DNA from: Stieleria neptunia
GTDB lineage: Bacteria > Planctomycetota > Planctomycetia > Pirellulales > Pirellulaceae
Reading direction: 5' to 3'
Assembly: GCF_007754155.1 (NCBI RefSeq)
Contig: NZ_CP037423.1
Location: forward strand, 8,118,938 to 8,182,937
DNA length: 64,000 nt
Positions 47,937 through 64,000 of the stretch are shown one piece after another; position 1 is the stretch's first letter, and each line of letters begins with the position of its first letter. Made by a program: the position numbers and the translations under genes. The notes under the pieces are model-generated. The model searched no databases. It was given only the letters and a program-made list of their open reading frames with translations, and was not told where the DNA came from.

Positions 47937-48248
47937 TCGTCTTCGTCGTCTGAGTGGCCCCAAGGTGCCGATTCCCTCGTCCAGCAGAACTTCGTTCGTC
48001 AGCGTTCATGATAAACAAATCCGCTGCCCCGGAGCGGTGATTTGGCAAAATCTGTCGCAGAGGACTCGCAGAAGACGGATCCCCACCAATCTGTCGCAGA
48101 ACGGTTGCCAACGGGTCTTGACATGGGGGTCCGCCACACGCAATCTAGGAAGTGGTGGTGATCGACAGTGCGTCGCCACTGCAATCCTGGTCACGCGCAT
48201 TGCAAACCTGTACAGGCGCAGAGTTCAACAACATCATAGGCAAGTATC

Positions 48249-49794: not shown

Positions 49795-49879
49795 CAACGA
49801 CGGTCGTCACCGGGCACGGAGAGACGACTTTCCACCTGCAAAACCTCGCAAGCCGTGCTCCGTGTGCACGGCATTGTTG
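49795..49879 (-). other. attC-like recombination site 1
   Basis: 85 bp from CAAC to GTTG. Arms CGTCACCGGGCACGG and CCGTGCTCCGTGTGCACGG pair with an unpaired base at GTGCAC. It follows the ankyrin gene in its reading direction. Confidence 0.65.
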
Positions 49880-49887
49880 CACTTTTT

Positions 49888-50469
49888 TCAGGTTGACGCC
49901 TTCGACGTCAGCGCTCCGTGTTGCCGCAATATACTTGCGACGGCATCATTTTCGTTGTCGATCGCTTCATCCAACGGCGTTCGCTGCTGATTTGTTCGCC
50001 GGTTGATGTCTGCACCATTGCGGATCAGTATTTCAGTGGTTTTTTCATACGCGTCCGGATCGCGTTTGCCCTGGGTTGCCCCACCCATCGCGACCGCGTG
50101 AAGCGCCGTTGTTCCGACAATGGCATCTTGATTGACGTCGGCACCGCGCTTCAGCAGTAGCTCAACGGCTTCGGCGCTACCAGCGTCAGCGCCCCACGAG
50201 AGAGGAGTCAGCCACCAATCACTTGCCGAGTCGTTCACATTTGCGCCTCGTTCGATGAGACGTTGACAGACTTCCGTGGCATTCCGATGCGCGGCCCAAT
50301 GAAGCGGTGTAGCGCCGTGAAGTTGTCCCAATCGATCGGAGTGCTCCCTGGCCAGTGCTGGAGACGCTTTCAGCATTTCCAACGCTTCCGTGGTCCGATG
50401 GTCACGAATGAGTTCAATCAAGGTGTCGACATCTGGCATTGTCGTGTCGAACGTTTTCAAGGTGTGCAT
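49888..50469 (-). CDS. Cassette gene: ankyrin-repeat protein
   Basis: 193 residues from ATG 50469 (ATG 50439, 'MPDVDTLIELIRDHR', is an alternative). Four ankyrin units: 'GATPLHWAAHRN...LIERGANVND', 'WLTPLSWGADAG...LLLKRGADVNQD', 'GTTALHAVAMGG...ILIRNGADINRR' and 'QRTPLDEAIDNE...ILRQHGALTS'. The protein is soluble and probably binds another protein. It starts 15 bases from attC-like site 2 and ends 9 bases from site 1, the tight packing expected for a gene cassette. Confidence 0.78.
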   Translation of the reverse strand: MHTLKTFDTTMPDVDTLIELIRDHRTTEALEMLKASPALAREHSDRLGQLHGATPLHWAAHRNATEVCQRLIERGANVNDSASDWWLTPLSWGADAGSAEAVELLLKRGADVNQDAIVGTTALHAVAMGGATQGKRDPDAYEKTTEILIRNGADINRRTNQQRTPLDEAIDNENDAVASILRQHGALTSKAST

Positions 50470-50483
50470 TCCAACGTTGCTGC

Positions 50484-50572
50484 AAAACGGTACCGATCAG
50501 CGGGCCGGGAGTATTGATTTTCCATTTGTGAAATCTTGCAAGCCCGGCTCCGTTGCAACCGATAGTACTGCC
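50484..50572 (-). other. attC-like site 2 (degenerate outer end)
   Basis: The arm CGATCAGCGGGCCGGG pairs with CCCGGCTCCGTTGCAACCG. The expected terminal GTTC at the right is replaced by GTAC. The stop of the next gene lies inside the left arm. Confidence 0.5.
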
Positions 50573-51084
50573 TCTTCGTTGGTGACGTTAACATGGACAC
50601 CAAGAATGTCGAGCTGTTCATCAAGCAGCGGTTGCATATAGTGGGCATATTCGGGCATGCGTTCCATGGTATCACGTAAACCGCGCACGTGGCCAACTGC
50701 TTCCGCAACGCCGATGGGCGTGTTGTCAAAAAACGACCATTGCCAAGTGCAGCTACCGACACGTGCGGATGCAACACGACCGTCAACCGTCACGATCGTT
50801 TGATGATCGTAGCTGCGCTCAGGTGTGAAGCCATAGACAACGCAGCGTCCGTAGCTCTCGGACCACTGTGGTGACGCAATTGCGAGCATTTCTTGCGTCG
50901 TAGCTCCAGCGGTCAAAGTCTCTTCCGCAAGCGCGACAACGATCGGATCATCCACGGATTGCATCGCACGATAGTCGTGAAAGTCATCAACCGATCGAAT
51001 CCCGATTGAACCACAGTAGATCACTAGCGCAATCACAGAAGCGACTGTAAGCAACGCGATAGTCTGTAGCGTGCGAACGAGCAT
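50497..51084 (-). CDS. Cassette gene: single-helix membrane protein
   Basis: 195 residues. ATG 51084 ('MLVRTLQTIALLTVASVIAL') is used; the frame stays open upstream only because it runs through the IS91-derived block. One N-terminal helix anchors a soluble domain with 'GRCVVYGFTPERSYDHQTIV' and 'GSCTWQWSFFDNTPIG'. No family recognised. The stop codon lies within attC-like site 2, so the last residues are encoded by the site. Confidence 0.65.
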   Translation of the reverse strand: MLVRTLQTIALLTVASVIALVIYCGSIGIRSVDDFHDYRAMQSVDDPIVVALAEETLTAGATTQEMLAIASPQWSESYGRCVVYGFTPERSYDHQTIVTVDGRVASARVGSCTWQWSFFDNTPIGVAEAVGHVRGLRDTMERMPEYAHYMQPLLDEQLDILGVHVNVTNEEAVLSVATEPGLQDFTNGKSILPAR

Positions 51085-51188
51085 TGGTCTGATGGTAGAA
51101 CGAATCGCGATCGATCCGCGCATGTGGAGGCAGGCGATAGATCGTGCGCCAGAACTTTGCCGCCCCTCGGGTGGCCGGTCACAGGACC

Positions 51189-51350
51189 TGATTAGAGCGG
51201 ATCCTGTCAGACGGTGCCAGTTTCTCAGGCCCAGGCGACGACGAGCTGGGTGGCGGAAGCACGGTCCGGTTCGGACTACGGCTCCTTTGCACTGACTTGT
51301 CCACTTATCAGGTACCAGTCGTGCCAGGTGCGAAAAACCTCCCCCCATCG
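51189..51350 (-). pseudogene. IS91-family transposase C-terminal remnant
   Basis: Reading leftward gives 'MGGGFS', then after a frameshift 'WHDWYLISGQVSAKEP' and, past stops, 'ETGTV', 'QDPL'. These match 'MGEGFSEWYEWYLKSGIES' and 'ETGMQQLMLF' of the longer transposase piece at 62250-62762. Confidence 0.7.
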
Positions 51351-51442
51351 CGGCCTCCCAGCTATCCCGGAGGGATCACAGCGAGTAGCCGGAGGTCAGC
51401 GCAGCGCCACCTCCGGACCACGCCCCACAGAACGCAGCAGGA

Positions 51443-51537
51443 AGGTAGGAAAATTTCGGGTAGGAAAACGGATGCCCGAAAAACGACACACCCGGCAAAC
51501 ACACGGCTCTCTTTTCCTACCCCAAATCTTCCTACCT
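51443..51537. repeat. 95-bp palindromic element, copy 2
   Basis: Same length and ends as copy 1; interior nearly identical. Confidence 0.85.
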
Positions 51538-51681
51538 CCATCTCCAGCCGATGCAACACCCGCACTTCACCATCAGAACCCCCGCTCCTCTTCGCCTTGA
51601 GGAAGCTGGCGATAGCCTGACGACCTCAGCCCACCGCGACCGCACATCAGCCGCCGAAGCGGTAAGCAATTCGATTAAGTT

Positions 51682-51766
51682 CAATGGCACGGATCACGCG
51701 GTCGCCGCGAGTGATCATCCACTTCAATGTCCACGACTCGGCGAATCGTCGTGCATGGCACGGTTC
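51682..51766 (-). other. attC-like site 3
   Basis: 85 bp from CAAT to GTTC. Inner arms GTCGCCG and CGGCGA pair; outer arms pair poorly, so the site may be chimeric or decayed after the IS91-type insertion at its left end. Confidence 0.5.
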
Positions 51767-51879
51767 ATCCGATTCCTACCGGCTTGTCTCAACGATGGAG
51801 CCGAGAATGAGAAACGTAGTTGCCACCATGTCGACAAGCGTTTCAAGTCCGTTCCCTCGCCGCAATCGTCGTTTTTCAT
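51724..51879 (-). CDS. Possible small cassette gene (51 aa)
   Basis: ATG 51879, 51 residues, beginning 'MKNDDCGEGTDLKRLSTWWQ' and ending 'MHDDSPSRGH', the ending being encoded inside attC-like site 3. It is the only frame that fills the stretch between sites 3 and 4. No family recognised; it may be a decayed cassette. Confidence 0.35.
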   Translation of the reverse strand: MKNDDCGEGTDLKRLSTWWQLRFSFSAPSLRQAGRNRMNRAMHDDSPSRGH

Positions 51880-51919
51880 TTTGCTGTGCGGTTACTGTCA
51901 AATCAAACCTCTTTGGGGC

Positions 51920-52004
51920 GAACGTCGGCCGTCACCGGGCGGCGACACAAGATTGTCAATTTGAACTCACCTGACTTCGCCGCTCCGGTTCACGGCAGTA
52001 CCCT
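51920..52004 (-). other. attC-like site 4
   Basis: Starts GAAC at 51920. The arm CGTCACCGGGCGGCG pairs with CGCCGCTCCGGTTCACGG. The right terminus reads AGTACCC instead of GTTC. It lies 15 bases beyond the lipoprotein stop. Confidence 0.6.
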
Positions 52005-52018
52005 GCGATCATTTCGGG

Positions 52019-52864
52019 TCAGTTGTCAGGTAGCAATTTCTTGGGTATCTGATCTTCCAATCGTTTGTCTCGAATCTCGATCAAACGATCCAATTCAGCT
52101 TTCACGTCGTCGCCGTTTTCCAACCGGCGTTCCAAGATTCGGATTTCCAGTGGAAGAATATTGAGGAAATAGCTGTCGGCATCCGAGGCTCCGATCAGTT
52201 TCTCTCGGTCGAGCAGCCATTGAACGCATTCGATTTGCATTTCCAAGTAATTCAGTTCTTTGTTTGCATCTAGCCACTCCTTCAGGCCTCCCGCATCATC
52301 GAACGGCGTTCCTTCCCAATACGGTTTAGGATGATTCTCGCCGTCACGCCCTTTTCGGCTGTACCCGTATTTGGAATAGTCTCTTGGTTGATCAACCAAT
52401 TGGAAATAGATATTCCAAAAGCAGGCGTCACCGACGGAGTTTCCCATGTAGTGATTGCGAAAATTGATCGACTGACGTTTGTCGTCGAGATGTTCGACCA
52501 ATAATGGAATCGCAGCATCTTTCAGCTCATAGAGCTTGGTAAATGCCTCTTGGCACGAGTTAAACTTCTGGCGTTTCTTTTCGGCGTCTTCAGAATCACC
52601 GTTGATTGGGCGGACGTTCCCATTGGAGTCGGCAATTTTGATATTGGGATTGACAACAGGCTGGTTGCTGGCCTCGTCATCAGAATACACCAGCTGTTCT
52701 ATCAATTTGCGAATGTCCGCCTCGCTGGTCTGTTCCCGAACACGATTTGCCTTTTCGTTTGTGATTGCAGATGCCGTCGATACTTGAGAACCGCGTTCGG
52801 TGTTGTTGTTCTCGCAACCAACAACGAAAGCGAAGATCAAGAGAAGGAAAGTGAATTGCCACAT
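52019..52864 (-). CDS. Cassette gene: lipoprotein of unknown function
   Basis: 281 residues. ATG 52864 gives 'MWQFTFLLLIFAFVVGCENN', a lipoprotein signal with Cys17 in a VVGC lipobox. The mature part has a low-complexity N-terminus, then a helical domain ('ADIRKLIEQLVYSDDEAS', 'AAIPLLVEHLDDKRQSINF'), whose 'PLLVEHLDD' resembles HEAT-like repeat proteins, and a charged C-terminus. Probably attached to the periplasmic or outer membrane face. No family recognised. It is flanked by sites 4 and 5. Confidence 0.68.
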   Translation of the reverse strand: MWQFTFLLLIFAFVVGCENNNTERGSQVSTASAITNEKANRVREQTSEADIRKLIEQLVYSDDEASNQPVVNPNIKIADSNGNVRPINGDSEDAEKKRQKFNSCQEAFTKLYELKDAAIPLLVEHLDDKRQSINFRNHYMGNSVGDACFWNIYFQLVDQPRDYSKYGYSRKGRDGENHPKPYWEGTPFDDAGGLKEWLDANKELNYLEMQIECVQWLLDREKLIGASDADSYFLNILPLEIRILERRLENGDDVKAELDRLIEIRDKRLEDQIPKKLLPDN

Positions 52865-52945
52865 TTGAAACCCCTCAAGCTTGCGACGACGGAACGGTGG
52901 AACCAACGCCAAAGAATGTTCATGGGTGGGGGAAATTCTGTGCGA

Positions 52946-53029
52946 TAACGGTACGGTTCAGTCGGGACGCGAGGGAGATTGCCCACTTCAAAATCGCTTT
53001 CTCGCGTCCTACGTTGCAACCGATGGTTT
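52946..53029 (-). other. attC-like site 5
   Basis: 84 bp. TAACGGTACGGTT pairs with AACCGATGGTTT, and CGGGACGCG pairs with CGCGTCCTA, with one bulged base at TTGCAAC. Confidence 0.68.
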
Positions 53030-53080
53030 GTCATTTCATTGCCCTGGTCGGTCACGAGCAAGCGGTTCGAAAACCGCTCC

Positions 53081-53419
53081 TCATTGTCGGACCACACTGA
53101 GCAGCCCGTCTAGCGTTTCTGCATGCTCGGACTTTAGGTCTCTGAGTGACTGTAGGTCCGATTCCGCCTTCGCGACTTCACCGATTTCGGCGTACGTTAG
53201 GGCGCGATTGAAGTAGGCTTCGTCCATGCTTGGGTCAGCCTGAATCGCGGCACCATAGTGCTCGATCGCCTTTGGTTTATCGGTCTCCCGTAAGCTGTTT
53301 GCCGTATTGAACTCCGTTGCGGCCTTTGCGGAATCAATGCCACTTCCGCATCCGAGCACCATGAATGAAACCGCAAGACACAGCACGATTGTTGGCAATG
53401 TTTTCATCTTCTCGATCAT
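53081..53419 (-). CDS. Cassette gene: small TPR lipoprotein
   Basis: 112 residues from ATG 53419 (ATG 53407 is an equally plausible start, giving 'MKTLPTIVLCLAVSFMVLGC'). The lipobox 'MVLGC' is followed by a tetratricopeptide pattern: 'ATEFNTANSLRETDKPKAIE', 'DPSMDEAYFNRALTYAEIG' and 'KAESDLQSLRDLK'. TPRs mediate protein-protein contact; membrane-attached. The start codon is four bases from the GAAC where an IS91-type element is inserted. Confidence 0.72.
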   Translation of the reverse strand: MIEKMKTLPTIVLCLAVSFMVLGCGSGIDSAKAATEFNTANSLRETDKPKAIEHYGAAIQADPSMDEAYFNRALTYAEIGEVAKAESDLQSLRDLKSEHAETLDGLLSVVRQ

Positions 53420-53518
53420 GACGAACGAATCGCGATCTATCCGAGCACACGGAGGAACGAGAATCCATCGGGCGACAGAACTTTGTCGGCCTGCAGGCGG
53501 GCCGCTCACAGGACCTGA

Positions 53519-53690
53519 TTAGAACGGATCCTGCCGGACGGTGCCAGTTTCTCTGGCCCATGTGAACTCAAGATGGGTGGCGGCAGCACGATCCGGCTCG
53601 GACTACGACTCCTTTGCACCTCTCATCTTCGTTTTTCAGGTACCAGTCGTACCACGTGCGAAAAACCTCCCCCCATCGCGGCGTCCCAGC
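53519..53690 (-). pseudogene. IS91-family transposase C-terminal remnant
   Basis: 'MGGGFS', then in the shifted frame 'WYDWYLKNEDERCKG', matching 'WYEWYLKSG' of the 62.3-kb transposase piece. The same frameshift is present in the copies at 51.2 and 57.8 kb. Confidence 0.7.
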
Positions 53691-53770
53691 TATCCCGGAG
53701 GGATCACAGCGATTAGCCGGAGGTCAGCGCAGCGCCACCTCCGGACCACGCCCCACAGAACGCAGCAGGA

Positions 53771-53865
53771 AGGTAGGAAAATTTCGGGTAGGAAAACGGA
53801 TGCCCGAAAAACGACACACCCGGCAAACACCCCGCTCTCTTTTCCTACCCCAAATTTTCCTACCT
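53771..53865. repeat. 95-bp palindromic element, copy 3
   Basis: Ends AGGTAGGAAAATTTCGGGTA and TACCCCAAATTTTCCTACCT. Confidence 0.85.
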
Positions 53866-54283
53866 CCATCTCCAGCCGATGCTTCCTCCGCGCTTCATCA
53901 TCAGAATCCCCGCTTCACCAATCACTTGCACGCCGTTCATCAGCGTCGCCGTGCTAGCCGCGTCTTGATCTCACTGGTGCACTTCAGACATCCAAAGGCG
54001 CTCGACTCCCAAGCAACGGCGTGAGCGTGAACAGAGTCGGATTCGTCTTTGAGTCAAAGAAAAACAACCTCGACCACACGACGCGAGTGACGGGGGAGTC
54101 AAGCGTCTCAGGATCGCTCGATGGGCCACAGGAGATCAAGACGGCTATCGCACAAAACGCTGACGACCTACGGCCCGAGGACTAAAGAAGCTGGCGTCAG
54201 CCCTACTGTTGTGAGTTCCACACCACCTCAACCCACCGTGACCGCACGTCAACGTTCGAAGCGGTAAGCAATTCGTTTAAGTT

Positions 54284-54350
54284 CAACGTCAGCGATTACG
54301 ACATTGAGAACGTTCTAGCAGTCACATCGCACGAGAGTAATCGACGGTTG
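54284..54350 (-). other. attC-like site 6 (short, atypical)
   Basis: CAACGTCAGCGATTAC pairs with GTAATCGACGGTTG; total only 67 bp, with an inner GAACGTTC palindrome. It lies 13 bases beyond the stop of the next gene. Confidence 0.45.
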
Positions 54351-54362
54351 CGAGCGAGACCT

Positions 54363-54695
54363 TCAGTCCTCTTGTGCCCATTGGTAGGAAATAAACGCGA
54401 AGTACCCGGCCATTCCCACGCGGAGAAGGCGATACGCACGTTGGGATAGGGTATTGTCAACCGTGACCAATGCGATCAGAGCAAGGGGAATCGTTATCGC
54501 GAGAATTGCCGCGAGCAGGTAACCACACCAGCGTTGGTCGAACCACATTCCAAGTGCGGGTAAGCCGACGAGAGCACCAATGAAGTAGTATCCGGTCAAA
54601 CCCATTGTCGTAGCGGCGACACACGCAGCAATACCGAAGAGAACCCAAACCGCAGACCAAAACGTTAGTTCACCACCAGGAGGTTTGAATTGCAT
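54363..54695 (-). CDS. Cassette gene: four-helix membrane protein
   Basis: 110 residues from ATG 54695 ('MQFKPPGGELTFWSAVWVLF'). Four hydrophobic segments (about 10-32, 34-50, 56-78, 90-105) with short loops and a 'QWAQED' tail. No family recognised. It is bounded by sites 6 and 7. Confidence 0.6.
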   Translation of the reverse strand: MQFKPPGGELTFWSAVWVLFGIAACVAATTMGLTGYYFIGALVGLPALGMWFDQRWCGYLLAAILAITIPLALIALVTVDNTLSQRAYRLLRVGMAGYFAFISYQWAQED

Positions 54696-54751
54696 CGGCG
54701 TCGAATGGAGTCTTGGTGTGCAGCGTCAGGTCGGAATGAACTCGTGCCGGC

Positions 54752-54835
54752 GAACGGTACGCGTCACTTGGCACGAGCGGAAACACTTGAACTCAAAACT
54801 GACTCGAACGAGTGCTCAGGTGCACGGCATTGTTC
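54752..54835 (-). other. attC-like site 7
   Basis: 84 bp from GAAC to GTTC. CGTCACTTGGCACGAG pairs with CGAGTGCTCAGGTGCACG, with an extra base at GTGCAC. Confidence 0.72.
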
Positions 54836-55821
54836 CTCGGATCTCGTCGAGTGTTCGGCGGCAGCGTTGAATGCGACCGATGCATGAGGATACCGCGGCG
54901 AGACAGACGAAGCAAATTCTCGCCCGCGAAACGAGCGGCACGAGTCTGGCGAACCGATACAGCGGTGGGTAGCCACGAAAAACACGAGAAGACACAAAAA
55001 GAAAAAGCGATGGTGGCGACCGGAAAGTTTGACATGCGATCCATTGGGACCGCAGCACAGCCCCGTCGTGGCGCGGACCAAGTCTCCATTTTGCGTCAGC
55101 CAAGAGGCCGTGTCGATTGTCGCGGCGTCCAAGCTATCCCGGAGGGATCACAGCGAGTAGCCGGAGGTCAGCGCAGCGCCACCTCCGGAACACACTCCCT
55201 AATCCGCCCCTCGACCCCGGACGGGGTCGCAGCAAATCCCAGCATCCCGGCGAGCGTCTCGGCTTGCTGCTCGGAATCCCAGAGACCCACCAACAAATCG
55301 GGAGCGATCACTGGAGGCAAGTCGTTTTCGCAACCCACAGAACGCAGCAGGAAGGTAGGAAAATTTCGGGTAGGAAAACGGATACCCGAAAAACCACACA
55401 CAAGACAAACACCCGGCTCTCTTTTCCTACCCAAAATCTTCCTACCTCCATCTCCAGCCAATGCTTCATCCGCGATTCATCATCAGAATCCCCGCTTCAC
55501 CAATCACTTGCACGCCGTTCATCAGCGTCGCCGTGCTAGCCGCGTCTTGATCTCATTGGTGCACATCAGACATCCAAAGGCGCTCGACTCCCAAGCAACG
55601 GCGTGAGCGGGTACAGAGTCGGATTCGTCTTTGAGTCAAGCACCTCTGAATCGCTCGATGGGCCACAAGAGATCAAGACGCTCATCGCATCAAAACGCTG
55701 ACGACCTACGGCCAGTGGATTTAAGAAGCTGGCGTCAGCCTACGGTCGCAAGTCCCACGCTGGCCTCAGCCCACCGCGACTGCAAGTCAACCTTCGAAGC
55801 GGTAAGCAATTCGATTAAGTT
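54836..55821. mobile_element. IS91-derived non-coding block (right end) in a gene-less cassette position
   Basis: No convincing gene in 986 bases. 55130-55821 matches the shared right part of the other IS91-type blocks (palindromes, GGAGGT...ACCTCC hairpin, end CGATTAAGTT before CAAC). 54836-55129 is unrelated to their left ends and includes a CACGAAAAACACGAGAAGACA stretch of low complexity. The left boundary was not located. Confidence 0.55.
55353..55447. repeat. 95-bp palindromic element, copy 4
   Basis: Same ends as copies 2 and 3; the interior has ATACCCGAAAAACCACACA. Confidence 0.85.
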
Positions 55822-55893
55822 CAACGTATGCGATCAATGCCCCAGTCCTCAATCACAACCTCGACTGGATGTTCAACATTCCATGACGTGTTG
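55822..55893 (-). other. attC-like site 8 (doubtful)
   Basis: CAACGTATGCGATCAATG partly pairs with CATTCCATGACGTGTTG. It sits where a site is expected after the IS91-type right end, but pairing is weak. Confidence 0.3.
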
Positions 55894-55959
55894 AAGTATA
55901 GCGAGAATTGAGTCGGATTGAATCTCACTGTAGGTCATGTTGCAGCGTCGGTGTCCGAC

Positions 55960-56042
55960 GAACGGCAGTCGTAACCGGGCGACCGCCGACGATTGTCCAT
56001 TTGCAAAAGCGTTATCGGTCGATCCGGTTCACGACATGGTTC
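55960..56042 (-). other. attC-like site 9
   Basis: 83 bp from GAAC to GTTC. CGAACGGCAGTCGTAACCGG pairs with CCGGTTCACGACATGGTTCG except for one bulge. The YcxB-like stop lies inside. Confidence 0.78.
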
Positions 56043-56608
56043 GTCGGCAGTTTTTCAGCCACAAGCTTGCGTATCCGAAACGGCCCATCGGCACTATCGA
56101 GTGTAGCGTCAGGAACCCAGTTTACCATTTTTGGCCCGCGGTAAAGAAGCACGCCATCATGGAAGATCACTGCCTTTGAAAAAGCTGCCCATTTGAGATC
56201 GGTTTGCTCGATTTCAGATTCGGCGCGAAATCCGTCACCCGACAGGTGAATGATTTGCTGAGCATTACAGTGCGGTGATTTGCGAAAATTGCGTGTGGCA
56301 AGATAGTCGTCAATCTTGTGCGGAAAGAACGCAAAGATCGCGAGAGCAAACATGAAAGCCGAGGCGAAGTATTGTGGAATGAACAGTCCGACAATTGCGA
56401 CGATTACGAAAATGAGCGCAGCAACGCATCGAAACCAACGCCACAGCCGGCGTCCCGAATGTTGCGACCGGAATCGCGTAAGCGTGTCGACCAGGTGTTG
56501 CGATGTGAACGAGAATTGGGAGGTAATGGTGCCGACAGAACTCGAATCAACGTCGCCAATCTCGTGCGACTCAGCTAGCGGCGGATCGTAGGGATTCACG
56601 TTTTCCAT
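56012..56608 (-). CDS. Cassette gene: YcxB-like membrane protein
   Basis: 198 residues from ATG 56608 ('MENVNPYDPPLAESHEIG'); a nine-residue longer start exists. The 'NPYDPP' opening is typical of planctomycete membrane proteins. Two adjacent helices (about 72-112) precede a domain with 'LKWAAFSKAVIFHDGVLLYR' and 'NWVPDATL', like the YcxB C-terminal domain (unknown role, membrane-associated). The C-terminal 'NHVVNRIDR' is encoded within attC-like site 9. Confidence 0.68.
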   Translation of the reverse strand: MENVNPYDPPLAESHEIGDVDSSSVGTITSQFSFTSQHLVDTLTRFRSQHSGRRLWRWFRCVAALIFVIVAIVGLFIPQYFASAFMFALAIFAFFPHKIDDYLATRNFRKSPHCNAQQIIHLSGDGFRAESEIEQTDLKWAAFSKAVIFHDGVLLYRGPKMVNWVPDATLDSADGPFRIRKLVAEKLPTNHVVNRIDR

Positions 56609-57105
56609 GTTCGGCGAACGACATTGTTTTTTCAATGGACGCCGACTCCGTGCCTGCGTGTGCGGGCGGATGGTTCGCGCGTCCGGCCACGACGACAGCC
56701 CGAGTCATCGCCGCTGACGGCCAATGTACTCCATCGGAATCGCCGTGGGAAATTTCACTCCCCTTGCTGTACCGATCTCTTTGTGGAGTCGCGATGAAGC
56801 CCGGAGAGGCTGGCACAATGCTTGCCGGTGGTGTCAGCCACCGGTATCGAAAGTACAGATTTGCTGAGGCCTGGAAGGCCGGCACAATGGGTCCCCCGGT
56901 CCACTCCAAGCCCGGGCATTGTGTCGGCCCGCTGGGCCTTGAGCATCCCTTGGAATCCGCCCCCGGTGGCTGACGCCACCGACAGACACTCTACCGGCCC
57001 TCCGGGCCTAAGACACATCGCACCGCCAGCCAAATCCGCTCCATCGATCCCGTTGGATTTGGCAAACACTGAGCAGTCACTATTTCGGGCGTCGGTTAGC
57101 AGCGT
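56609..57105. other. Gap with a dispersed GGTGGCGTCAGCCACC-type repeat
   Basis: About 500 bases. 56825-56985 carries inverted copies of GTGTCAGCCACCGGTA and GGTGGCTGACGCCACC and several GGGCCTTGAG/GGCCTTCC-like hairpins. The block is bounded by GAAC on both sides (56616-56619 and 57106-57109), as if another element had entered the cassette junction. No IS91-type hairpin and no gene was recognised. Confidence 0.5.
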
Positions 57106-57189
57106 GAACGGTAACGATCACGTGGCCGCCGCGAACGACTGGCCATTTCTATAAAGTCAACTCGGCGGCTCACGTGCATCGTCTGGTCC
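57106..57189 (-). other. attC-like site 10
   Basis: 84 bp from GAAC to GTCC. ACGATCACGTG pairs with CACGTGCATCGT (one bulged base) and CCGCC with GGCGG. The next gene's stop is inside. Confidence 0.72.
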
Positions 57190-57684
57190 GCCGCTTCGTG
57201 ACTTGTTTTCAGTCTCGATGCGTCCCATCATACTACGACGGTGGCGTGCTCTGAACGAAACCTCGATCGGTCCCATCACAGTGCTCTGAAACATAGCCCT
57301 GATCTTGTCAATCGGAATCCCGCTTTCGATCAGCTTGTTCTTGGCCACCTTTTTCGGTTTAAATCCTTGCCAATCGGAAGGGCACACCAGAAAGCGGTAG
57401 GCACGTTTGAGGGGAATCCGTTCAATCACTGCATTTGTTGTGGGACAGAATAGAACAGCTCCCTTCCACTCGGCTTTATCAGAGTGAGCAGCAGCCGCGA
57501 TAGCATTCTTCACAGCATTCGGCATCCAATCAGGTGGGTTTTCCAGACTGAACGTGTGATGCCGACACTCGCAAAGTGGCGCTGCCTCGGAGCCCGCGAA
57601 TAAGTCATCGAGGTCTTGCGCGAGCAAAGCGTTGGCAACACACAGAAACCAAGTCAAGGCTGCGAAGCGGAATAGTGTCGGCAT
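57157..57684 (-). CDS. Cassette gene: exported protein of unknown function
   Basis: 175 residues from ATG 57684 with signal peptide 'MPTLFRFAALTWFLCVANAL'. A Cys/His pair 'CECRHH' lies near residue 38. The domain contains 'PPDWMPNAVKNAIAAAAH' and 'YRFLVCPSDWQGFKPKK'. No family recognised. The C-terminal 'GGPDDAREPPS' is encoded by the attC-like site and recurs on unrelated cassette proteins. Confidence 0.62.
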   Translation of the reverse strand: MPTLFRFAALTWFLCVANALLAQDLDDLFAGSEAAPLCECRHHTFSLENPPDWMPNAVKNAIAAAAHSDKAEWKGAVLFCPTTNAVIERIPLKRAYRFLVCPSDWQGFKPKKVAKNKLIESGIPIDKIRAMFQSTVMGPIEVSFRARHRRSMMGRIETENKSRSGGPDDAREPPS

Positions 57685-57811
57685 GTTTAGAAAACGCAGG
57701 TACGCGGCGGTCGGCGAACGAATTGCGATCTATCCGCGCACGCGGAGGAACGGGGATCGATCGTGTGCCAGAACTTTGTCGCTCTTCAATGGGCCGGTCC
57801 CAGGACCTGAT

Positions 57812-57975
57812 TAGAGCGGATCCTGCCAGACGGTGCCAGTTTCTCTGGCCCAGGCGAACTCGAACTGGGTGGCGGGAGGACGGTCAGGTTCGGACTCTCG
57901 TTCCTTTGCACTTTCTTGTTCACTTTTCGCACGACCAGTCGTACCAAGTGTGAAAAACCTTCACCCATCGCGATG
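57812..57975 (-). pseudogene. IS91-family transposase C-terminal remnant
   Basis: 'MGEGFS', then in the shifted frame 'WYDWSCEK' and a stop; the tail 'ETGTVWQDPL' corresponds to 'ETGMQQLMLF'. Confidence 0.7.
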
Positions 57976-58214
57976 CCACCGACGCAGCGTCCACGGTATC
58001 CCGAAGGGATTTCAGCGAGTAGCCGGAGGTCAGCGCAGCGCCACCTCCGGAACACACTCCCTAATCCGCCCCTCGACCCCGGACGGGGTCGCAGCAAATC
58101 CCAGCATCCCGGCGAGCGTCTCGGCTTGCTGCTCGGAATCCCAGAGACCCACCAACAAATCGGGAGCGATCACTGTCGGCAAGTCGTTTTTCAAACCCAC
58201 AGAACGCAGCAGGA

Positions 58215-58309
58215 AGGTAGGAAAATTTCGGGTAGGAAAACGGATACCCGAAAAACGACACACAAGACAAACACCCGGCTCTCTTTTCCTACCCAAAATT
58301 CCCCTACCT
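58215..58309. repeat. 95-bp palindromic element, copy 5
   Basis: Ends AGGTAGGAAAATTTCGGGTA and TACCCAAAATTCCCCTACCT. Confidence 0.85.
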
Positions 58310-58840
58310 CCATCTCCGACCGATGCATCCCCCGCGGATCATCATGAATGCCCCCCAATCCTCTTCCCGTTGAGGAGGTTGGGGAGAATGCCGACGCAAT
58401 CTCTCACAAGGGTGCACTACACGGCTCTTGGTCACGCCGAACGACCTGGCCCTCCGAACACCGTCCGCTTCACCAATCACTTGCACGCAGTTCATCGGCG
58501 TCGCGGTGCAAACCGCGTTCTGATCTCACTGGTGCACTTCAAACATCTGAAGGCGCTCGACTCCCAAGGATCGGCGTGAGCGTGTGCAGAGTCGGATTCG
58601 TCTCTTCGTCAAAGAAAAACCCCCTCGGTCCACACAACGTGAGTGACGGGGGAGTCATGCGCCGCAGGATCACACGTTGGGCCACAACAGATCAAGACGC
58701 TGGTCGCACCAAAACGCGGACGACCTACGGCCAGTCGATTCAAGAATCTGGCGTCAGCTTTTCGGCCCGGAGTCCCACGCAACCTGAGCCCGCCGCGACC
58801 GCACATCAACCGCCGAAGCGGTAAGCAATTCGATTAGGTT

Positions 58841-58924
58841 CAACGCTACGGATCACACGGTCGCCGCGATCGACTGACCACTTCAATAAACTCAACTCGG
58901 CGGCTCGTGTGCATCCGATGGTTC
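58841..58924 (-). other. attC-like site 11
   Basis: 84 bp from CAAC to GTTC. CGGATCACACG pairs with CGTGTGCATCCG (one bulged base), GCCGC with GCGGC. Confidence 0.78.
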
Positions 58925-59356
58925 GTCGTTCTCTGCTGCGGAATCGTGATGTGCGGAGATGGGTCCGATCAGCCCGCAACCAATGATCATGGCCGCTACG
59001 GTAGTCATCAGGAATACCCAATGATACCAAGACAGAGGTCCATGAAACGAGTTACCCAGAACGAAAGTGTCGAACACGAAGAAGCAAGCGGTCCACACCA
59101 AGATGAGTCCCAACCAACCCAATAGTCGAATCGTCGCTGGATTTCCTTCAATCGTGTCCATACGTATGCCTGATCTCGGTGTTGATCGTCGGAAATAGAG
59201 CCACATGCCAACGAAAACAACAGGCACGACGAGAAAACGCAATCCACCAGTTAGATACATGCAGAAAAGCGCAGCACTGGACGCGACCAATGTTGCAATC
59301 GCAAAGATTCGGTCCCAGCGTCCACGCGTAAACACGATTGTCTTTGGTCGTGACAA
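58892..59356 (-). CDS. Cassette gene: four-helix membrane protein
   Basis: 154 residues from TTG 59356 ('MSRPKTIVFTRGRWDRIFAI'). Hydrophobic segments near 18-36, 38-55, 76-97 and 108-130, then a hydrophilic tail. The terminal 'SDAHEPPS' is encoded within attC-like site 11. No family recognised. The start codon is 20 bases from site 12. Confidence 0.6.
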   Translation of the reverse strand: MSRPKTIVFTRGRWDRIFAIATLVASSAALFCMYLTGGLRFLVVPVVFVGMWLYFRRSTPRSGIRMDTIEGNPATIRLLGWLGLILVWTACFFVFDTFVLGNSFHGPLSWYHWVFLMTTVAAMIIGCGLIGPISAHHDSAAENDEPSDAHEPPS

Positions 59357-59375
59357 TCAACTGCTCCTCATCGAG

Positions 59376-59460
59376 GAACGGCGGACATCACGGGGCACGG
59401 AGAGTTGACTCTCCATCGCGAAAAACACCGCAAGCCGTGCTCCCGTTCATGTCATTGTTC
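59376..59460 (-). other. attC-like site 12
   Basis: 85 bp from GAAC to GTTC. CACGGGGCACGG pairs with CCGTGCTCCCGTTC; terminal GGAAC and GTTCC pair. Confidence 0.72.
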
Positions 59461-59465
59461 CCCGT

Positions 59466-60164
59466 TTATTCGTATCCAAGGTCACGAATCAGGTGAGCAT
59501 CAGGTGTAATCTTATTGCGGTCAACACCGAGCTGATCCATCAATATTAGTGTCAGAATGGTCCAAACGTCACGATGGCTAAAAGCGTTGTGCCGGTCTGC
59601 AAGCTTCGTGACATTTCGAGCCAGCACTTGTTCGGTCAAGCCGCGAAGCGTGTCAAATGTGGCATCCGGTAGTGTCGCAAGCGGTCGTGTGGCGAAAAAG
59701 ATAATCGCTGCTGTCACAACGAAGCATCCAACAGAGACCAGTGTTGAAAATGTCGAACTACCAAGCATCAAAAAGAAAGTGATTGATGCGGCAAGAGAAA
59801 CAGCGAAGCCAACGAAGGTGACGTATCGAGGGCGGCACAACGGAGGAAGCCGAATCAACAAGTCGTCAGCCATGCGTGCCCATGCTTCACGGCGTTTGGC
59901 TCGGGGAAGTGCTTCAAGGAGCGGTGTCGAAGGAGAGATTCGACGAGCGGTCGGTGAGGGTAGGTCGTGAGAGTGAAGCAGCAAATGGCGCCGCAGAGAG
60001 TGAAAAACGCGAGCGGAGAGGCACGCTTCAGGATTTCGGGTACGACTAGCAGTCGCCAGCAAGACAAAGGCATAAAGATCGCCGACCGTGACAATGTCCG
60101 CCGCTGGGCCGTCAGGGATTTCGATTCCGAACGACTCTTCGAGTTCAAAAACTAGTTCGCACAT
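59466..60164 (-). CDS. Cassette gene: membrane protein with split acyl-carrier-protein-like halves
   Basis: 232 residues from ATG 60164. Residues 1-34 ('LVFELEESFGIEIPD...VTVGDLYAFV') look like the second half of an acyl carrier protein (helix II to IV). Residues about 197-232 ('DVWTILTLILMDQLGVD', 'KITPDAHLIRDLGYE') look like the first half, ending just where the phosphopantetheine DSL motif should begin. Between them lie a basic helical part and two hydrophobic helices (about 118-165). The order is thus circularly permuted and the modification serine is absent. Function unknown; it may be a distinct planctomycete family. Confidence 0.6.
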   Translation of the reverse strand: MCELVFELEESFGIEIPDGPAADIVTVGDLYAFVLLATASRTRNPEACLSARVFHSLRRHLLLHSHDLPSPTARRISPSTPLLEALPRAKRREAWARMADDLLIRLPPLCRPRYVTFVGFAVSLAASITFFLMLGSSTFSTLVSVGCFVVTAAIIFFATRPLATLPDATFDTLRGLTEQVLARNVTKLADRHNAFSHRDVWTILTLILMDQLGVDRNKITPDAHLIRDLGYE

Positions 60165-60200
60165 GGGAAGCGGTTGGAATTGAGGTTTTGCTCAGTCGGG

Positions 60201-60284
60201 GAACGGTAGCCGTCACCGAGGACGGACGATGGATTTTCCACTTCAAAAACCGCGCAAGCCGTCCTTCGGTGCACGGCATGGTTC
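60201..60284 (-). other. attC-like site 13
   Basis: 84 bp from GAAC to GTTC. GGGGAACGGTAGCCGTCACCG pairs with CGGTGCACGGCATGGTTCCCC; the extra base lies at GTGCAC. Confidence 0.8.
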
Positions 60285-60298
60285 CCCGTGATTCTTGG

Positions 60299-60895
60299 TT
60301 ATTTGAATGGGTCGCCGCCGAATGGATCGCCAAATGAGTCCTCACTTGCAGCGGCCACTTGCTTATCGAATAGTTTACACCAGTGGCCTGACTCAAGTGC
60401 GTCTTGGGCGTCGGAGCCCCATACGGAAACAGCCAAATCATTCGACAACGCATGGACCGCGGCGGACACAAATGAGTTTTCAGCGACCGATGACCTTCTA
60501 CCGCTCATTTCAGCGATGCGGACTCTCGACCATGCCGAAACCGATTTTGAGGTCAATTGAACGAATTTACCATCGGCGGATGAGAGAACGATTGCCCTAT
60601 CTCGCTCGCGTTCGATGGAAATCCCCGTTCGCTTGACCATGGCGTCTGCGGCCGAAGGAAAAACGATCATCGCTACGTGAGGTGTCGCATTCCGATCTGA
60701 CACACCAAACGTACATCGCAACGTTCCGCCATCGAAAGCAAACGTTACTGAACCAGGGATGGTCTGGCCTTTCGTCGTTGCATCGTCAACTGCGTCCTCA
60801 ACTGGACCAAATGGATTGCCTTCTGCCGCAGGCTCTTGCGCATTGACAGACGCAAAACCGAGTGAGACCGCGACAAAACAGAGGACGTAACGCAT
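60299..60895 (-). CDS. Cassette gene: exported protein of unknown function
   Basis: 198 residues from ATG 60895 with signal peptide 'MRYVLCFVAVSLGFASVNAQ'. A strand-rich core ('VTFAFDGGTLRCTFGVSD', 'PHVAMIVFP') is followed by a helical part and a C-terminal 'DSFGDPFGGDPFK'; the N-terminal region also has 'GNPFGPVED'. No family recognised. Bounded by sites 13 and 14. Confidence 0.65.
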   Translation of the reverse strand: MRYVLCFVAVSLGFASVNAQEPAAEGNPFGPVEDAVDDATTKGQTIPGSVTFAFDGGTLRCTFGVSDRNATPHVAMIVFPSAADAMVKRTGISIERERDRAIVLSSADGKFVQLTSKSVSAWSRVRIAEMSGRRSSVAENSFVSAAVHALSNDLAVSVWGSDAQDALESGHWCKLFDKQVAAASEDSFGDPFGGDPFK

Positions 60896-60914
60896 TCAAG
60901 GAATCTTTATCGGG

Positions 60915-60998
60915 GAACGGTAACGATCACGTGGTCGCCGCGAACGACTCACCACTTCAACAAACTCAACTCGGCGACTCACGTGCATCGTCTGGTTC
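60915..60998 (-). other. attC-like site 14
   Basis: 84 bp from GAAC to GTTC. ACGATCACGTG pairs with CACGTGCATCGT, and TCGCCG with CGGCGA; the loop has CACTTCAACAAACTCAACTC. Confidence 0.8.
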
Positions 60999-61427
60999 GC
61001 CGCTTTCTCCGCGAGCAACGCACAGGCGGCGCCAAACGTCCGCAGTCATTCGATATTGGTAGCAACCCCTTAACATATTAGCAAACCCGGGATCTTCAGC
61101 GGCTGATTTTTCGACAACCGAGATGTAGTCATTTCCGTGATTCCCAAGCAAGTGCTCAACTGGTCCCGCTGCGAGGTGTCCGTGAGTATCCACGTTTCCG
61201 TGCGAGTACGCAGCAAGAATGAATTTCCATTGAGCGTTCGGCGATGCCGTAAAGTTCATTGGAACGACGAAGTCGCTTGCGCCGCTCGGCGGATCATCGA
61301 GCAACCAAGGAAGGCGCGGAAGCGGATGTGATTCTTCACTTCCGTTGAGTTCAGCATTCCAAGCAATAGCGAATTGATCCCATTCGGCATCGGTGAGTTC
61401 ATCCCAGCGAGGATCAAGGAATGTCAT
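60966..61427 (-). CDS. Cassette gene: DUF6869 family protein
   Basis: 153 residues from ATG 61427. The central block 'NAQWKFILAAYSHGNVDTHG', 'HLAAGPVEHLLGNHGNDYIS' and the following 'EDPGFANMLRGCYQYRM...VWRRL' match the DUF6869 pattern (small soluble proteins, biochemical role unknown, scattered in accessory regions). No signal peptide, so cytosolic. The C-terminal 'PDDARESPS' is encoded in attC-like site 14. Confidence 0.72.
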   Translation of the reverse strand: MTFLDPRWDELTDAEWDQFAIAWNAELNGSEESHPLPRLPWLLDDPPSGASDFVVPMNFTASPNAQWKFILAAYSHGNVDTHGHLAAGPVEHLLGNHGNDYISVVEKSAAEDPGFANMLRGCYQYRMTADVWRRLCVARGESGEPDDARESPS

Positions 61428-61445
61428 ATGATGCCTTCAGTCAGC

Positions 61446-61531
61446 GAACGTTACGGATCACGCGGTCGGCGCGATAGATCAACCACTGCAATCCAACCCG
61501 ACTCGCCGACTCGTCGTGCATCCGATTGTTA
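61446..61531 (-). other. attC-like site 15
   Basis: 86 bp from GAAC to GTTA. TACGGATCACG pairs with CGTGCATCCGA, and GTCGGCG with CGCCGAC. Confidence 0.76.
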
Positions 61532-62146
61532 CCCGCCGTCGTTCGGTCCCGCAACAAACGGATCGGACCACGTCTTCGATTTGTCTTTGTAGAGAATTTT
61601 GATCGACGGATGCGTAATTTTTTCGATATCGAACATCGTGCGCATCCCCCGATAGTCGGCCACTCGTATCAGGACTCCGTAATCGTATAGCTTTTTGTCT
61701 TTCTTGTACGCTCTAAGAGCGTCGTCTCGAAGCAAAACGGTTTTGCCATTGATTTCCACACGCGTATATCGAGAGATACTCGCCATCAATGAAATCTGAC
61801 CATCCCTTTTTCTTCCATGCGCAAGCGGAACGTAGATTTTGTCTTTATCGGTCAGCACAGTGCCGTGCAGCGTGTCTTGTCGAATGTCATCGACACTGCC
61901 AACATCTGTCGTAAACTTCATGTTGTAGGCAATGTGCCCCACTGAGCCGTCATCAATCACTAGCACCGTCGACGTGAACATCCCAACTTCGCTTGTCGAT
62001 GCGTAGACCCCGGACCAACGTTTTCCGTCTGGGTGCGGTTGAAACATGGCGTCGCGAGTTTGTGTCAGCAACTCCTTTGGCTCATCGCCGGCAACAGGGC
62101 AAGCGACTACAAGCAGCGCTAAACTTAAGGCGATGGAAATCTTCAT
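61529..62146 (-). CDS. Cassette gene: exported protein of unknown function
   Basis: 205 residues from ATG 62146 with signal peptide 'MKISIALSLALLVVACPVAG'. The mature protein is strand-rich and Asp/Lys-rich ('VLVIDDGSVGHIAYNMKF', 'LTDKDKIYVPLAHGRK'). No cysteine remains after the signal. No family recognised. The stop lies at the edge of site 15. The start is 12 bases from GAAC, where the IS91-type element is inserted. Confidence 0.65.
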   Translation of the reverse strand: MKISIALSLALLVVACPVAGDEPKELLTQTRDAMFQPHPDGKRWSGVYASTSEVGMFTSTVLVIDDGSVGHIAYNMKFTTDVGSVDDIRQDTLHGTVLTDKDKIYVPLAHGRKRDGQISLMASISRYTRVEINGKTVLLRDDALRAYKKDKKLYDYGVLIRVADYRGMRTMFDIEKITHPSIKILYKDKSKTWSDPFVAGPNDGG

Positions 62147-62249
62147 TTTTAGTCGGTGAACGAAATGCGATCTATCCGGGTACGGAGTACACGGATAGAT
62201 CGTGCGTTGAAGTTTGTCGGCACGACTTGGCCGCTTCTGGGGGACGCTA

Positions 62250-62762
62250 TTAGAACAGCATGAGTTGCTGCATGCCAGTTTCTGCGGTCGTCTCGGTCAT
62301 GGCGCCCATGCCCGGGGACTCTCCTGCACTTTCAATGCCACTTTTCAGATACCACTCGTACCACTCCGAAAAACCTTCCCCCATCGCATCGTCCCAGAAC
62401 CGAATCTCATCAAGTTTTTGGCTCTCACGGTACCAACCTGGGCTACACTCCGAATCGCGTCCCAAGATCTCGCTCCAGGATCGCTTCGGATACTCGTGCG
62501 TCAGACGAAGCGACTCGCTGCCACAGTGCTCACAGCATCGCTCCGGCTCGGTCTCCAACTCGGCCTCCGCTTCTTCCACCGCAGCCATCACGGCCATGCG
62601 AGCCTCCGCACCGTCGGCTGCACTCAGGGAGGCAAGGCAGCGTTGCTGATACGCCACCGCTTTCGTGCTCGACCAACCTCCGAATTGACGCGTTTTGGTT
62701 AGCTGATTGGGCTGGATGTGCAAGCAGCAGCGGCGAATGAACTCCGCGGTCGAAAGAGTCAA
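62250..62762 (-). pseudogene. IS91-family transposase, C-terminal part
   Basis: 170 codons. 'LSTAEFIRRCCLHIQPNQL' and 'KTRQFGGWSSTKAVAYQQR' match the region after the catalytic core in IS91/Transposase_32 proteins. A CxxC pair 'CCEHCG' and the end 'ETGMQQLMLF' follow. The N-terminal zinc finger and the rolling-circle tyrosines are missing. The frame is open at its left limit near the recombinase fragment, showing that the two were joined by deletion. Confidence 0.78.
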
Positions 62763-63022
62763 CGGAACTTGAATCGACTCACCGCCCGTCGTGTATCCTT
62801 CACGTGCCCAGAGCCGTAGGCAAGCTTTCGTTCTCGGATCAGATGGAGCTGGAAGGTTCTAACGTCTTCGACGGTTGCCTGGTCGAGCGGTTTTTGGATA
62901 AAGTCGGCAAACTTTCGCACGTGATAGGTGTAGGCGTCGATGGTGGCTTCGGCCATGTTGCGGATCAACATGTCTTCGGCGAGTCGCTTGGTGAGTTTGC
63001 AGGTTCGTTTTTTGTGTGACAT
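62759..63022 (-). pseudogene. Tyrosine recombinase, N-terminal (SAM-like) part
   Basis: 87 codons from ATG 63022. 'LAEDMLIRNMAEATIDAYTY' and 'VRKFADFIQKPLDQATVED' then 'LHLIRERKLAYGSG' match the core-binding domain of IS91-associated phage-type integrases. The catalytic domain (R...HxxR...Y) is absent; the frame ends in 'SRFKFR' at the junction with the transposase fragment. It is not an integron integrase. Confidence 0.72.
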
Positions 63023-63300
63023 CACGGTTGCTTGTCCTTGTTGTGAAACAGAGTTCAAAAGAAGTTCGCGCCGCAGCGTGCGGGGAACACAACAAGGGTG
63101 CGTCAACGAGCAAAAAGCGCAAGTTAAAACGCAAGGCAAGGCACCAAGAAAGAGACCGTAAGAACGCCTAGCGCGCACAACTGGCTAACCGCAAAAGCGC
63201 CTACAGGCGCGCCGAAAGACAGACACGTTGTGACCCTCACACACTCACCGCACTGACAAGAGAAAACGGTCACGCCAATGAAGTCGCTGCCGATTAAGTT

Positions 63301-63387
63301 CAACGGTAGAAATCACGCGGGACGGGCGAACGACTCGCAAGCAGACCAGAAACCGCGACTCCCGTCCTCCCGTGCAATTCATTGTTC
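63301..63387 (-). other. attC-like site 16
   Basis: 87 bp from CAAC to GTTC. AAATCACGCGGGACGGG pairs with CCCGTCCTCCCGTGCAATT, with one bulged base. Confidence 0.72.
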
Positions 63388-63951
63388 CCCGCCGTCATTG
63401 CCCTGGTCGCTGCCTGGGGAAACTTCCATCGTCCCCATTCCCATTCCCATTCCCATTCCCATTGGCTGGCCGGAAGTCCGCAGCGCCGCCATTCGCTGAG
63501 ATTCTTGTAGCGCGTAGCCAATCGTTTTTCTTGCAATGTCAGGTTTGTTGAGGAAGTCAGAGATCTGTTCGTGAACGTAGGGTCGCTGTGTAACGGCGAT
63601 AGCATTTTCTCCCATCGGGCGCATCGTGCCGTCGCCTCCCATTGACTCCCAGGTGCCAGGCTCAATCGTTGTTTCAATTGCCATGAAAACCAAGTCGAGC
63701 CGACCAATTCCGGCGTCATCTAGTTGAGATTGTTGTAGCTGAGATTCGCCAAAGAGTTTACCAATGTCGTAAATCGTCACGATGGGGAGCTCTGATCGTC
63801 GTTTCTCAATTCCGCTGGAGTAACCGTTGCTAAATCCGGTCCGGTAGCCCGCCAGCAACCCCGCAACGCATGCAGCCAACAGTAAGATCGTCGCAATTGA
63901 GTACCGGAATACGCGTGTTCGTGATTTGGAAACATCCATAGAGCGAGTCAC
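63379..63951 (-). CDS. Cassette gene: single-helix protein with secretin-like segment
   Basis: 190 residues from ATG 63951 (ATG 63939 possible). One helix (about 17-38: 'IATILLLAACVAGLLAGYRT') anchors a domain with 'IVTIYDIGKLFG', then 'TTIEPGTWESMGGDGTMRPM' and 'IAVTQRPYVHEQISDFL', a pattern seen in planctomycete secretin/N-domain-like proteins. A Met-Gly repeat near 164-173 is encoded by a (CCCATT)n hexanucleotide repeat at about 63434-63463. The stop lies in attC-like site 16. Confidence 0.65.
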   Translation of the reverse strand: MTRSMDVSKSRTRVFRYSIATILLLAACVAGLLAGYRTGFSNGYSSGIEKRRSELPIVTIYDIGKLFGESQLQQSQLDDAGIGRLDLVFMAIETTIEPGTWESMGGDGTMRPMGENAIAVTQRPYVHEQISDFLNKPDIARKTIGYALQESQRMAALRTSGQPMGMGMGMGMGTMEVSPGSDQGNDGGEQ

Positions 63952-63966
63952 TATTCTTTGGTCGGG

Positions 63967-64000
63967 GAACGGCCCGCGTCACCGAGGACGGACGATTGAT
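63967..64000 (-). other. attC-like site 17 (cut by the window edge)
   Basis: Left arm only: GAACGGCCCGCGTCACCGAG and GACGGACGATTG, closely matching the left arm of site 13. The array therefore continues beyond the window. Confidence 0.65.

Follow-up and report, generated by a model that had tools for sequence, protein, structure and literature searches.

A probable integron cassette array in the genome of Stieleria neptunia, remote from its likely integrase, with IS91-type elements at its attC sites

Introduction

What kind of locus consists of small genes of different families, all on one strand and separated by similar imperfect palindromes? The question is raised by the right-hand part of a 64,000-nucleotide stretch of the Stieleria neptunia genome (NZ_CP037423.1, positions 8118938-8182937 of 10,975,817 bp, or 10.98 Mb), which we call the window. 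An initial annotation, made from the letters alone, had proposed an array of integron gene cassettes without a nearby integrase. Such arrays are known as CALINs, clusters of attC sites lacking an integron integrase, a term introduced with IntegronFinder (PMC9024848). Our analysis leads to the same answer. With a probability of roughly 95%, positions 49790-64000 are the downstream part of a CALIN of 37 sites, the cassettes of which are likely moved as single-stranded circles by the only integron integrase (IntI) over the family cut-off in this genome, encoded about 840 kb away.

Results

The sites and their fold

A simple scan for GAAC..GTTC combined with folding returned many chance hairpins and was abandoned in favour of a covariance model. 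This model, R1, was built from 14 window palindromes aligned on the minus strand, with the R-box pairs added. Applied to positions 48000-64000 with filters off, it scored the 14 sites at 64.0-99.7 bits on the minus strand, whereas the plus strand at the same places reached at most 15.2 bits and the next-best match elsewhere in this range 16.5 bits. No match was found in positions 1-48000 (default filters, E up to 10). A custom covariance model had been suggested as a check, and R1 recovers the array on one strand.

Including one site across the right edge, R1 finds 15 sites in the window. The array continues beyond that edge for about 14 kb, as had been suspected, and comprises 37 sites at 8168727-8197125, all on the minus strand. 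Two additional half sites (3' halves only), missed by R1, were recognized by eye near 54284 and 55822, beside remnants of IS91-like elements. They occupy 54285..54350 and 55823..55895 on the minus strand (outer bounds approximate), and the junction of each ends in GTT. Together with the 15 sites they account for the "up to 17" palindromes counted initially.

All sites lie on the minus strand. The last of the array is at 49790..49884 (82.1 bits), followed by 50480..50573 (79.9 bits; AAC altered, no AAC/GTT anchor pair), 51677..51771 (67.0 bits; its 3' end reads ATT for GTT and is followed by an IS91-like remnant with left end 51682), 51915..52008 (72.1 bits; AAC altered) and 52941..53034 (71.2 bits). 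The site at 54747..54840 (64.0 bits) belongs to a gene-less stretch. Further to the right are 55955..56047 (86.4 bits), 57101..57194 (88.4 bits; AAC altered), 58836..58929 (90.1 bits; an IS91-like remnant with left end 58841 at its GTT), 59371..59465 (82.7 bits), 60196..60289 (99.7 bits), 60910..61003 (96.1 bits; the site of a cassette with an identical copy in the array linked to intI), 61441..61536 (77.7 bits) and 63296..63392 (74.2 bits; GTT joined to an IS91-like element). The edge site starts at 63962 and runs past 64000 (genome 8182899-8182992; 76.4 bits for the whole site). Both AAC and GTT are anchored in 11 of the 15.

The 14 aligned window sites share a consensus hairpin in which 13 of the 17 pairs show two-sided changes. 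A wider set was drawn from 14 loci outside the window, which gave 191 matches. In the 150 best of these (146 distinct rows), standard pairs fill 92.5% of the pair cells, compared with 67.6% after shuffling and 27.8-47.0% with the partners slid, and the covariation score is 0.568 versus 0.144; all these values lean towards the fold, as the alignment was fitted to the model. Two bases on the 5' arm are unpaired, and on the bottom strand they are a T and a C, spaced as T-N6-C in 123 and T-N7-C in 21 of the 150 outside sites (together 144) and in 11 and 3, respectively, of the 14 window sites (together 14). In the unpaired spacer, three bases face four. The palindrome length had been given as 83-87 bp, which holds approximately: genome-wide, 211 of 262 sites measure 82-84 bp between AAC and GTT. 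A tRNA scan and an Rfam scan (gathering score) produced no match.

The sites thus combine a one-strand hairpin with AAC/GTT R boxes, an unpaired spacer and, on one arm, two extrahelical bases, the features by which an attC site is recognized. The proposal of a cassette array had been made dependent on such folding, and the palindromes do fold in this way, on the minus strand and with compensatory changes. Among the 262 sites with both anchors, most cores are GTTC (194) and GAAC (206). The seven-base core consensus of attC sites was drawn mostly from Proteobacteria. In its typical form it reads RYYYAAC and GTTRRRY (PMC3053210, PMC8876359). We treat it as a consensus and not as a defining feature; a stricter reader may prefer to say that the sites work like attC. 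Classes of attC are defined by their extrahelical bases, and the T-N6-C class is well recombined by several integrases (PMC3053210).

Cassette boundaries and movement

When a cassette inserts as a circle at G^TT, the bases before AAC are expected to be complementary to its own start, and any agreement with the cassette that follows would be due to chance. In the full set of 248 neighbouring pairs in the genome, these five bases agreed with the own start in 4.26 positions on average (169 perfect) versus 2.29 for the next start (33 perfect). Ten of the pairs skip a site, through dropped unanchored sites; the remaining 238 gave 4.39 (169 perfect) and 2.31 (32 perfect). For a strict set we removed IS91-like starts and neighbours (248 to 203) and then the abundant CACGC class (203 to 147). 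In these 147 pairs the own start matched in 4.48 positions (108 perfect) and the next start in 2.27 (12 perfect), with shuffled means of 2.24 and 2.16. The own value was reached in 0 of 10000 shuffles and the next value in 1313. R1 was trained with in-array pairing, so that its bias works against this result. In the window, at least four of the five bases match the own start in seven of 11 testable cassettes. The match to the own start indicates that the cassettes probably moved as circles.

A second line of evidence comes from the cassette at 60915..61451 (minus strand), which consists of a DUF6869 gene and its attC. The intI-linked array holds a copy of it (genome 9058784-9059320) that is identical at 537 of 537 positions; the 40-base flanks of the two copies are unrelated (14 and 9 of 40 bases agree). 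An exact copy between unrelated flanks again indicates probable movement as a circle. Other whole cassettes are 97-100% identical between distant arrays, including cassettes of the window array past the window edge. Both marks of a gene cassette, the own-start match and occurrence independent of neighbours, are thus present.

The same independence is seen in relatives. The sppA flank to the right of the array is conserved, with 79-88% DNA identity, in the related genomes G001 and G012, where the 20-kb stretch holding it contains 23 and four R1 sites, respectively. A tblastn search (E up to 1e-5) with the 13 window proteins gave no match in 16 stretches of these two genomes, except for short pieces of the open reading frame (ORF) at 50497, which overlaps an IS91-like remnant. 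Fixed synteny in relatives, named at the outset as an observation that would count against an array, was thus not seen in the stretches compared: the flank is conserved in two species and, those short pieces apart, the window proteins are without a match. Single window cassettes recur without their window neighbours in G013 (83%) and G010 (75%), as seen in loci of 3.6-3.7 kb, and another is matched in G010 at 72% (the cassette alone compared). R1 sites occur in 14 of 14 genomes of the genus and, counting ours, in 41 of 60 genomes; intI (E up to 1e-60) occurs in 22 of the 60.

The integrase and attI

Only one integron-integrase match in the genome exceeds the family cut-off (TIGR02249; 380 bits, cut-off 265). 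Its position, 9036714-9037652 (minus strand), is 840 kb away from the window array, in agreement with the initial statement that no integrase is near. The recombinase fragment inside the window is part of an IS91-like element; reading it as a broken intI was rejected, as it aligns to that element and is not among the TIGR02249 matches. With at least two attC sites of the same orientation between single genes (15 in the window, 37 in the array) and no intI beside them, the locus has the composition of a CALIN, as had been proposed.

The IntI frame has 453 amino acids, and its closest solved protein is 2a3v, the Vibrio cholerae integron integrase. The alignment to 2a3v retains R, H, R, H and Y, which we take to be the active-site residues. 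Also retained are P232, H240, H241, K209, Y210 and W219, the residues that contact the extrahelical bases (PMC3053210). IntI (L024:16702-18063) carries an N-terminal extension of about 135 residues, which most of its closest relatives in planctomycetes share and which, judging by the matched ranges among the matches listed, few other bacteria have.

An array of 60 sites adjoins intI on the opposite strand (plus; first R1 site at 9039758), and this locus has the features of a complete integron: intI, attI and a divergent array. For comparison, the best 80 of 190 stretches with IntI relatives were used, and 30 of these 80 loci were scanned with R1. Sites were found in 12 of the 30, all 71 of them on the strand opposite to intI; among the other 18 loci, several sequences end close upstream of intI. 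Within the best 80, IntI is 99% identical in Stieleria sedimenti and Rhodopirellula sp. SM50 and 81% identical in TBK1r. Our genome and these three share the attI leader, from intI to the first cassette, up to a GTT: it ends ...TAATTAATGGTT, and in the TBK1r version ...TAATTGATTGTT. Directly after this GTT the four genomes diverge into four different first cassettes. In our genome it is an IS91-transposase cassette, and in SM50 the sequence begins like a 469-bp gene-less cassette. Relative G003, of the same genus and in one contig, has six integron-integrase matches over the cut-off.

Ten arrays in one genome

Genome-wide, with the cluster regions scanned, R1 finds 284 sites in ten arrays of four to 60 sites, and within each array all sites are on one strand (284 of 284). 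In total the arrays span about 255 kb (2.3% of the genome). Beyond the scanned regions there are at least seven lone sites. In the site list, the seven weakest of 163 matches were left out and the two halves of the edge site were replaced by the whole. Without a clear AAC or GTT anchor, 22 of the 284 sites (four of the 15 in the window) were set aside, and both are anchored in the remaining 262. Cassette layout was examined in 112 cassettes with a frame of at least 100 amino acids, restricted to families of at most three copies, each family counted once. The frame reads in array direction in 102 of them, with a median start 29 nucleotides into the cassette and a median stop 87 nucleotides before its end.

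The arrays have 54-56% GC and their flanks 58-60%. Repeated cassettes with no clear gene form families of 45, 18, 10, nine and six copies, 401-715 bp long, which are interspersed in most arrays; in stretch L025, for example, they produce a spacing near 469 bp. In Vibrionaceae there are gene-less cassettes that have promoter activity (PMC11014356), and the repeated ones here may be similar. If the replication origin is near coordinate 1, which is shaky, eight of the ten arrays run with replication, and the intI-linked and 1.43-Mb arrays run against it. DnaA-like genes are found at C1:106-1095 and C1:4771579-4773132; the one at 4.77 Mb is the better match, and neither reaches the cut-off. The GC skew of the array flanks was too weak to tell the replication strand.

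IS91-type elements

Across the genome, 17 of 19 Y2-transposase matches (two of the 19 are partial and close together) have one of the 284 sites within 1.7 kb, while the arrays account for only 2.3% of its length. The elements belong to two subfamilies. For the 2.7-kb subfamily we counted 13 copies with a common left end within the array regions and stretches analysed: eight are whole (2721 or 2726 bp) and encode a tyrosine recombinase and a Y2 transposase, three are shortened to 1146-1147 bp and two have no right end at the expected distance. Eleven of the 13 abut the GTT of an attC, all in the same orientation, and near two copies outside the arrays (397888 and 10326607) there is no attC above 14.1 bits (R1, filters off). 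This subfamily gives Y2_Tnp matches (PF04986 alone was searched), and its terminal hairpin is followed by GTTC, GTTA or, in one case, GTTG. Older gene-less derivatives behave similarly, since 20 of their 23 left ends follow GTT and 16 of the 23 are at one of the 284 sites. IS91 inserts, without duplication, at a target tetranucleotide of the GTTC/CTTG class. With left ends mostly after GTT and right ends before GTTC, GTTA or once GTTG, IS91-type and cassette-type insertion both fit.

Members of the 1.5-kb subfamily are laid out as cassettes, with a transposase gene and a full attC, one arm of which matches the start of the same unit. The transposase at L024:18376-19578 matches PF04986 (Y2_Tnp) and PF14319 (Zn_Tnp_IS91). 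Units lie at L024:18332-19852 and at genome positions 9054902, 9183945, 9857432, 9869112, 9875827 and 9877357. In a comparison of six, the transposase part was 97-100% identical in five and about 82% identical in the sixth. The units carry two versions of attC, and one copy is the first after attI. The link is less tight in relatives, where 18 of 30 Y2 loci examined, drawn from 49 matches listed in ten genomes, have R1 sites (E up to 0.05) within 1.5 kb.

In the window, a truncated element of 1147 bp occupies 62159..63305, with remnants of the Y2 transposase at 62250-62762 and of the tyrosine recombinase at 62759-63178; its transposase fragment matches the end of PF04986 slightly below the cut-off. 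Gene-less remnants with both ends are found at 51099..51682, 53424..54284 and 57717..58841. A fourth, at 55334..55822 (extent approximate), has its left end at 55822 and no right end was found, and a left-end piece at 49415..49798 forms the array border. All are on the minus strand.

Genes of the window cassettes

The window cassettes contain 13 genes. The initial annotation had counted 14, and was right in placing all on one strand, the minus strand. It had also stated that most genes start within 60 bases of a site, which applies to eight of the 13 with respect to the upstream site; of the other five, four start behind or inside an IS91-like remnant. Pfam families were found for an ankyrin-repeat protein (49888..50469), a tetratricopeptide-repeat (TPR) protein (53081..53509; PF13414), a YcxB-like protein (56012..56635; PF14317) and the 153-amino-acid DUF6869 protein (60966..61427; PF21746). 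The gene at 59466..60164 has a weak phosphopantetheine-site match below the cut-off. No Pfam family was assigned to 52019..52912, 54363..54695, 57157..57684, 61529..62146, 63379..63951 and 60299..60895, the last in a cassette with a cassette-long 83% DNA match in one related species, and none above the cut-off to 58892..59356. The first part of the ORF at 50497..51348 overlaps an IS91-like remnant, and its true start is probably later.

Discussion

How would the window array have been assembled? A typical cassette consists of one small gene and an attC site. The bottom strand of attC would fold into a hairpin with two bases flipped out, IntI would cut the folded site at G^TT, and the resulting cassette circle could re-insert at an attC of the window array or at attI beside intI. 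This route fits what is read directly from the sequence, namely the sites with their covarying fold and orientation, the cassette boundaries, the circle signature, the exact copy, and attI with its four first cassettes. We infer that IntI is active and works in trans on the window array today.

Several observations weigh against this interpretation. Two window sites are degenerate halves, and four of the 15 lack an intact AAC or GTT. Four of the 11 testable window cassettes fail the circle signature, although two of these follow IS91-like ends and one was paired across dropped sites, and five of the 11 show a match of four or more bases to the next start as well. Finally, GTTRRRY is present in only 31 and RYYYAAC in only eight of the 262 anchored sites, so that the constant part is just AAC/GTT.

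The strongest alternative is that the locus is a fossil, that is, a true cassette array which is no longer recombined, with intI far away and IS91-like elements having broken it up. The two half sites, together with five gene-less IS91-like left ends and one truncated element within 14 kb, are what such decay would leave, and the altered AAC or GTT and the missing circle signatures point the same way. However, the intI-linked array holds a copy of one window cassette that is identical over all 537 bp, far-apart arrays share whole cassettes at 97-100% identity, the window array beyond the edge included, and the 14 whole window sites still score 64-99.7 bits. We therefore consider a fossil unlikely.

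Much less probable still, and disfavoured, is an origin in which the palindromes are ends or targets of IS91-like rolling-circle transposons that alone built the array. It would explain why 17 of the 19 Y2 matches are within 1.7 kb of a site and why one element, in intact or broken form, abuts the GTT of a site in 11 of its 13 copies. It does not account for sites beside intI in 12 of 30 scanned loci, all 71 on the opposite strand, for the attC pair of extrahelical bases, or for a circle signature that persists with the IS91-like ends left out. An ordinary cluster of small genes, or an operon, in which the hairpins are terminators or RNA elements would agree with close spacing on one strand, but it is rejected as next to impossible, because the hairpins match no Rfam family at gathering score and are alike in sequence and asymmetry in ten arrays although the window genes differ, copies that coincide exactly with a cassette exist elsewhere, and a conserved gene order, sought in two genomes, was not found.

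Within the preferred interpretation of a cassette array served by a distant IntI, the role of the IS91-type elements can be addressed more tentatively. They may have become passengers of the integron that join it at the cross-over point of attC. One subfamily would have acquired a full attC and travel as a cassette, and the other would end in an attC-like hairpin and bring its own tyrosine recombinase. Together, the two systems may have distributed an ancestral integron over ten arrays under one intI. We rate this proposal at slightly below even odds. If correct, it would link two mobile systems that both act on single-stranded DNA. In the literature searched, mainly open papers and including parts of PMC7923331, PMC8876359 and PMC2754498, no description of an IS91-type transposon at or with attC was found.

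The 284 sites outnumber the 179 cassettes of V. cholerae and are split over the chromosome, with one intI over the cut-off. The genome thus offers a natural test of whether one integrase acts in trans on arrays far away from it. The own-start comparison, for its part, supplies evidence of circle insertion that requires nothing but sequence and can be used on any array.

Comparison with known systems

Both intI (PMC2426708) and a covariance model for attC sites (PMC8352920) have been published for Planctomycetes, the phylum of the window array, which therefore belongs to a known kind. The examined parts of these two papers contain no array map, R-box description or link to IS91. Like a CALIN, the window array is an ordered series of same-strand cassettes with attC and no neighbouring intI; unlike a CALIN, it has a matching intI in the same genome, adjoining another of ten arrays of the same family, with single cassettes in common. 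The sedentary chromosomal integron of V. cholerae contains 179 cassettes, some with embedded insertion sequences (IS; PMC11023631). It resembles the present system in its large number of similar attC sites and in its genes, most of them unknown, as well as in having gene-less cassettes and cassettes that hold insertion sequences. Here, however, 284 sites are distributed over ten arrays, and the R-box cores are mostly GAAC/GTTC and not RYYYAAC/GTTRRRY.

The transposons are related to IS91/ISCR, as the 1.5-kb subfamily encodes Y2_Tnp and Zn_Tnp_IS91 and the 2.7-kb subfamily has Y2_Tnp matches. ISCR1 is known beside class 1 integrons (PMC8876359). Unlike IS91/ISCR, the elements described here are at attC cross-over points, and one subfamily is itself a cassette with a full attC. 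An IS200/605 element has been described behind a CALIN, which is likewise a case of a single-strand (HUH) transposon beside such an array. That example, however, concerns one insertion sequence of another family at an array end, whereas here 17 of 19 Y2 matches are near attC sites.

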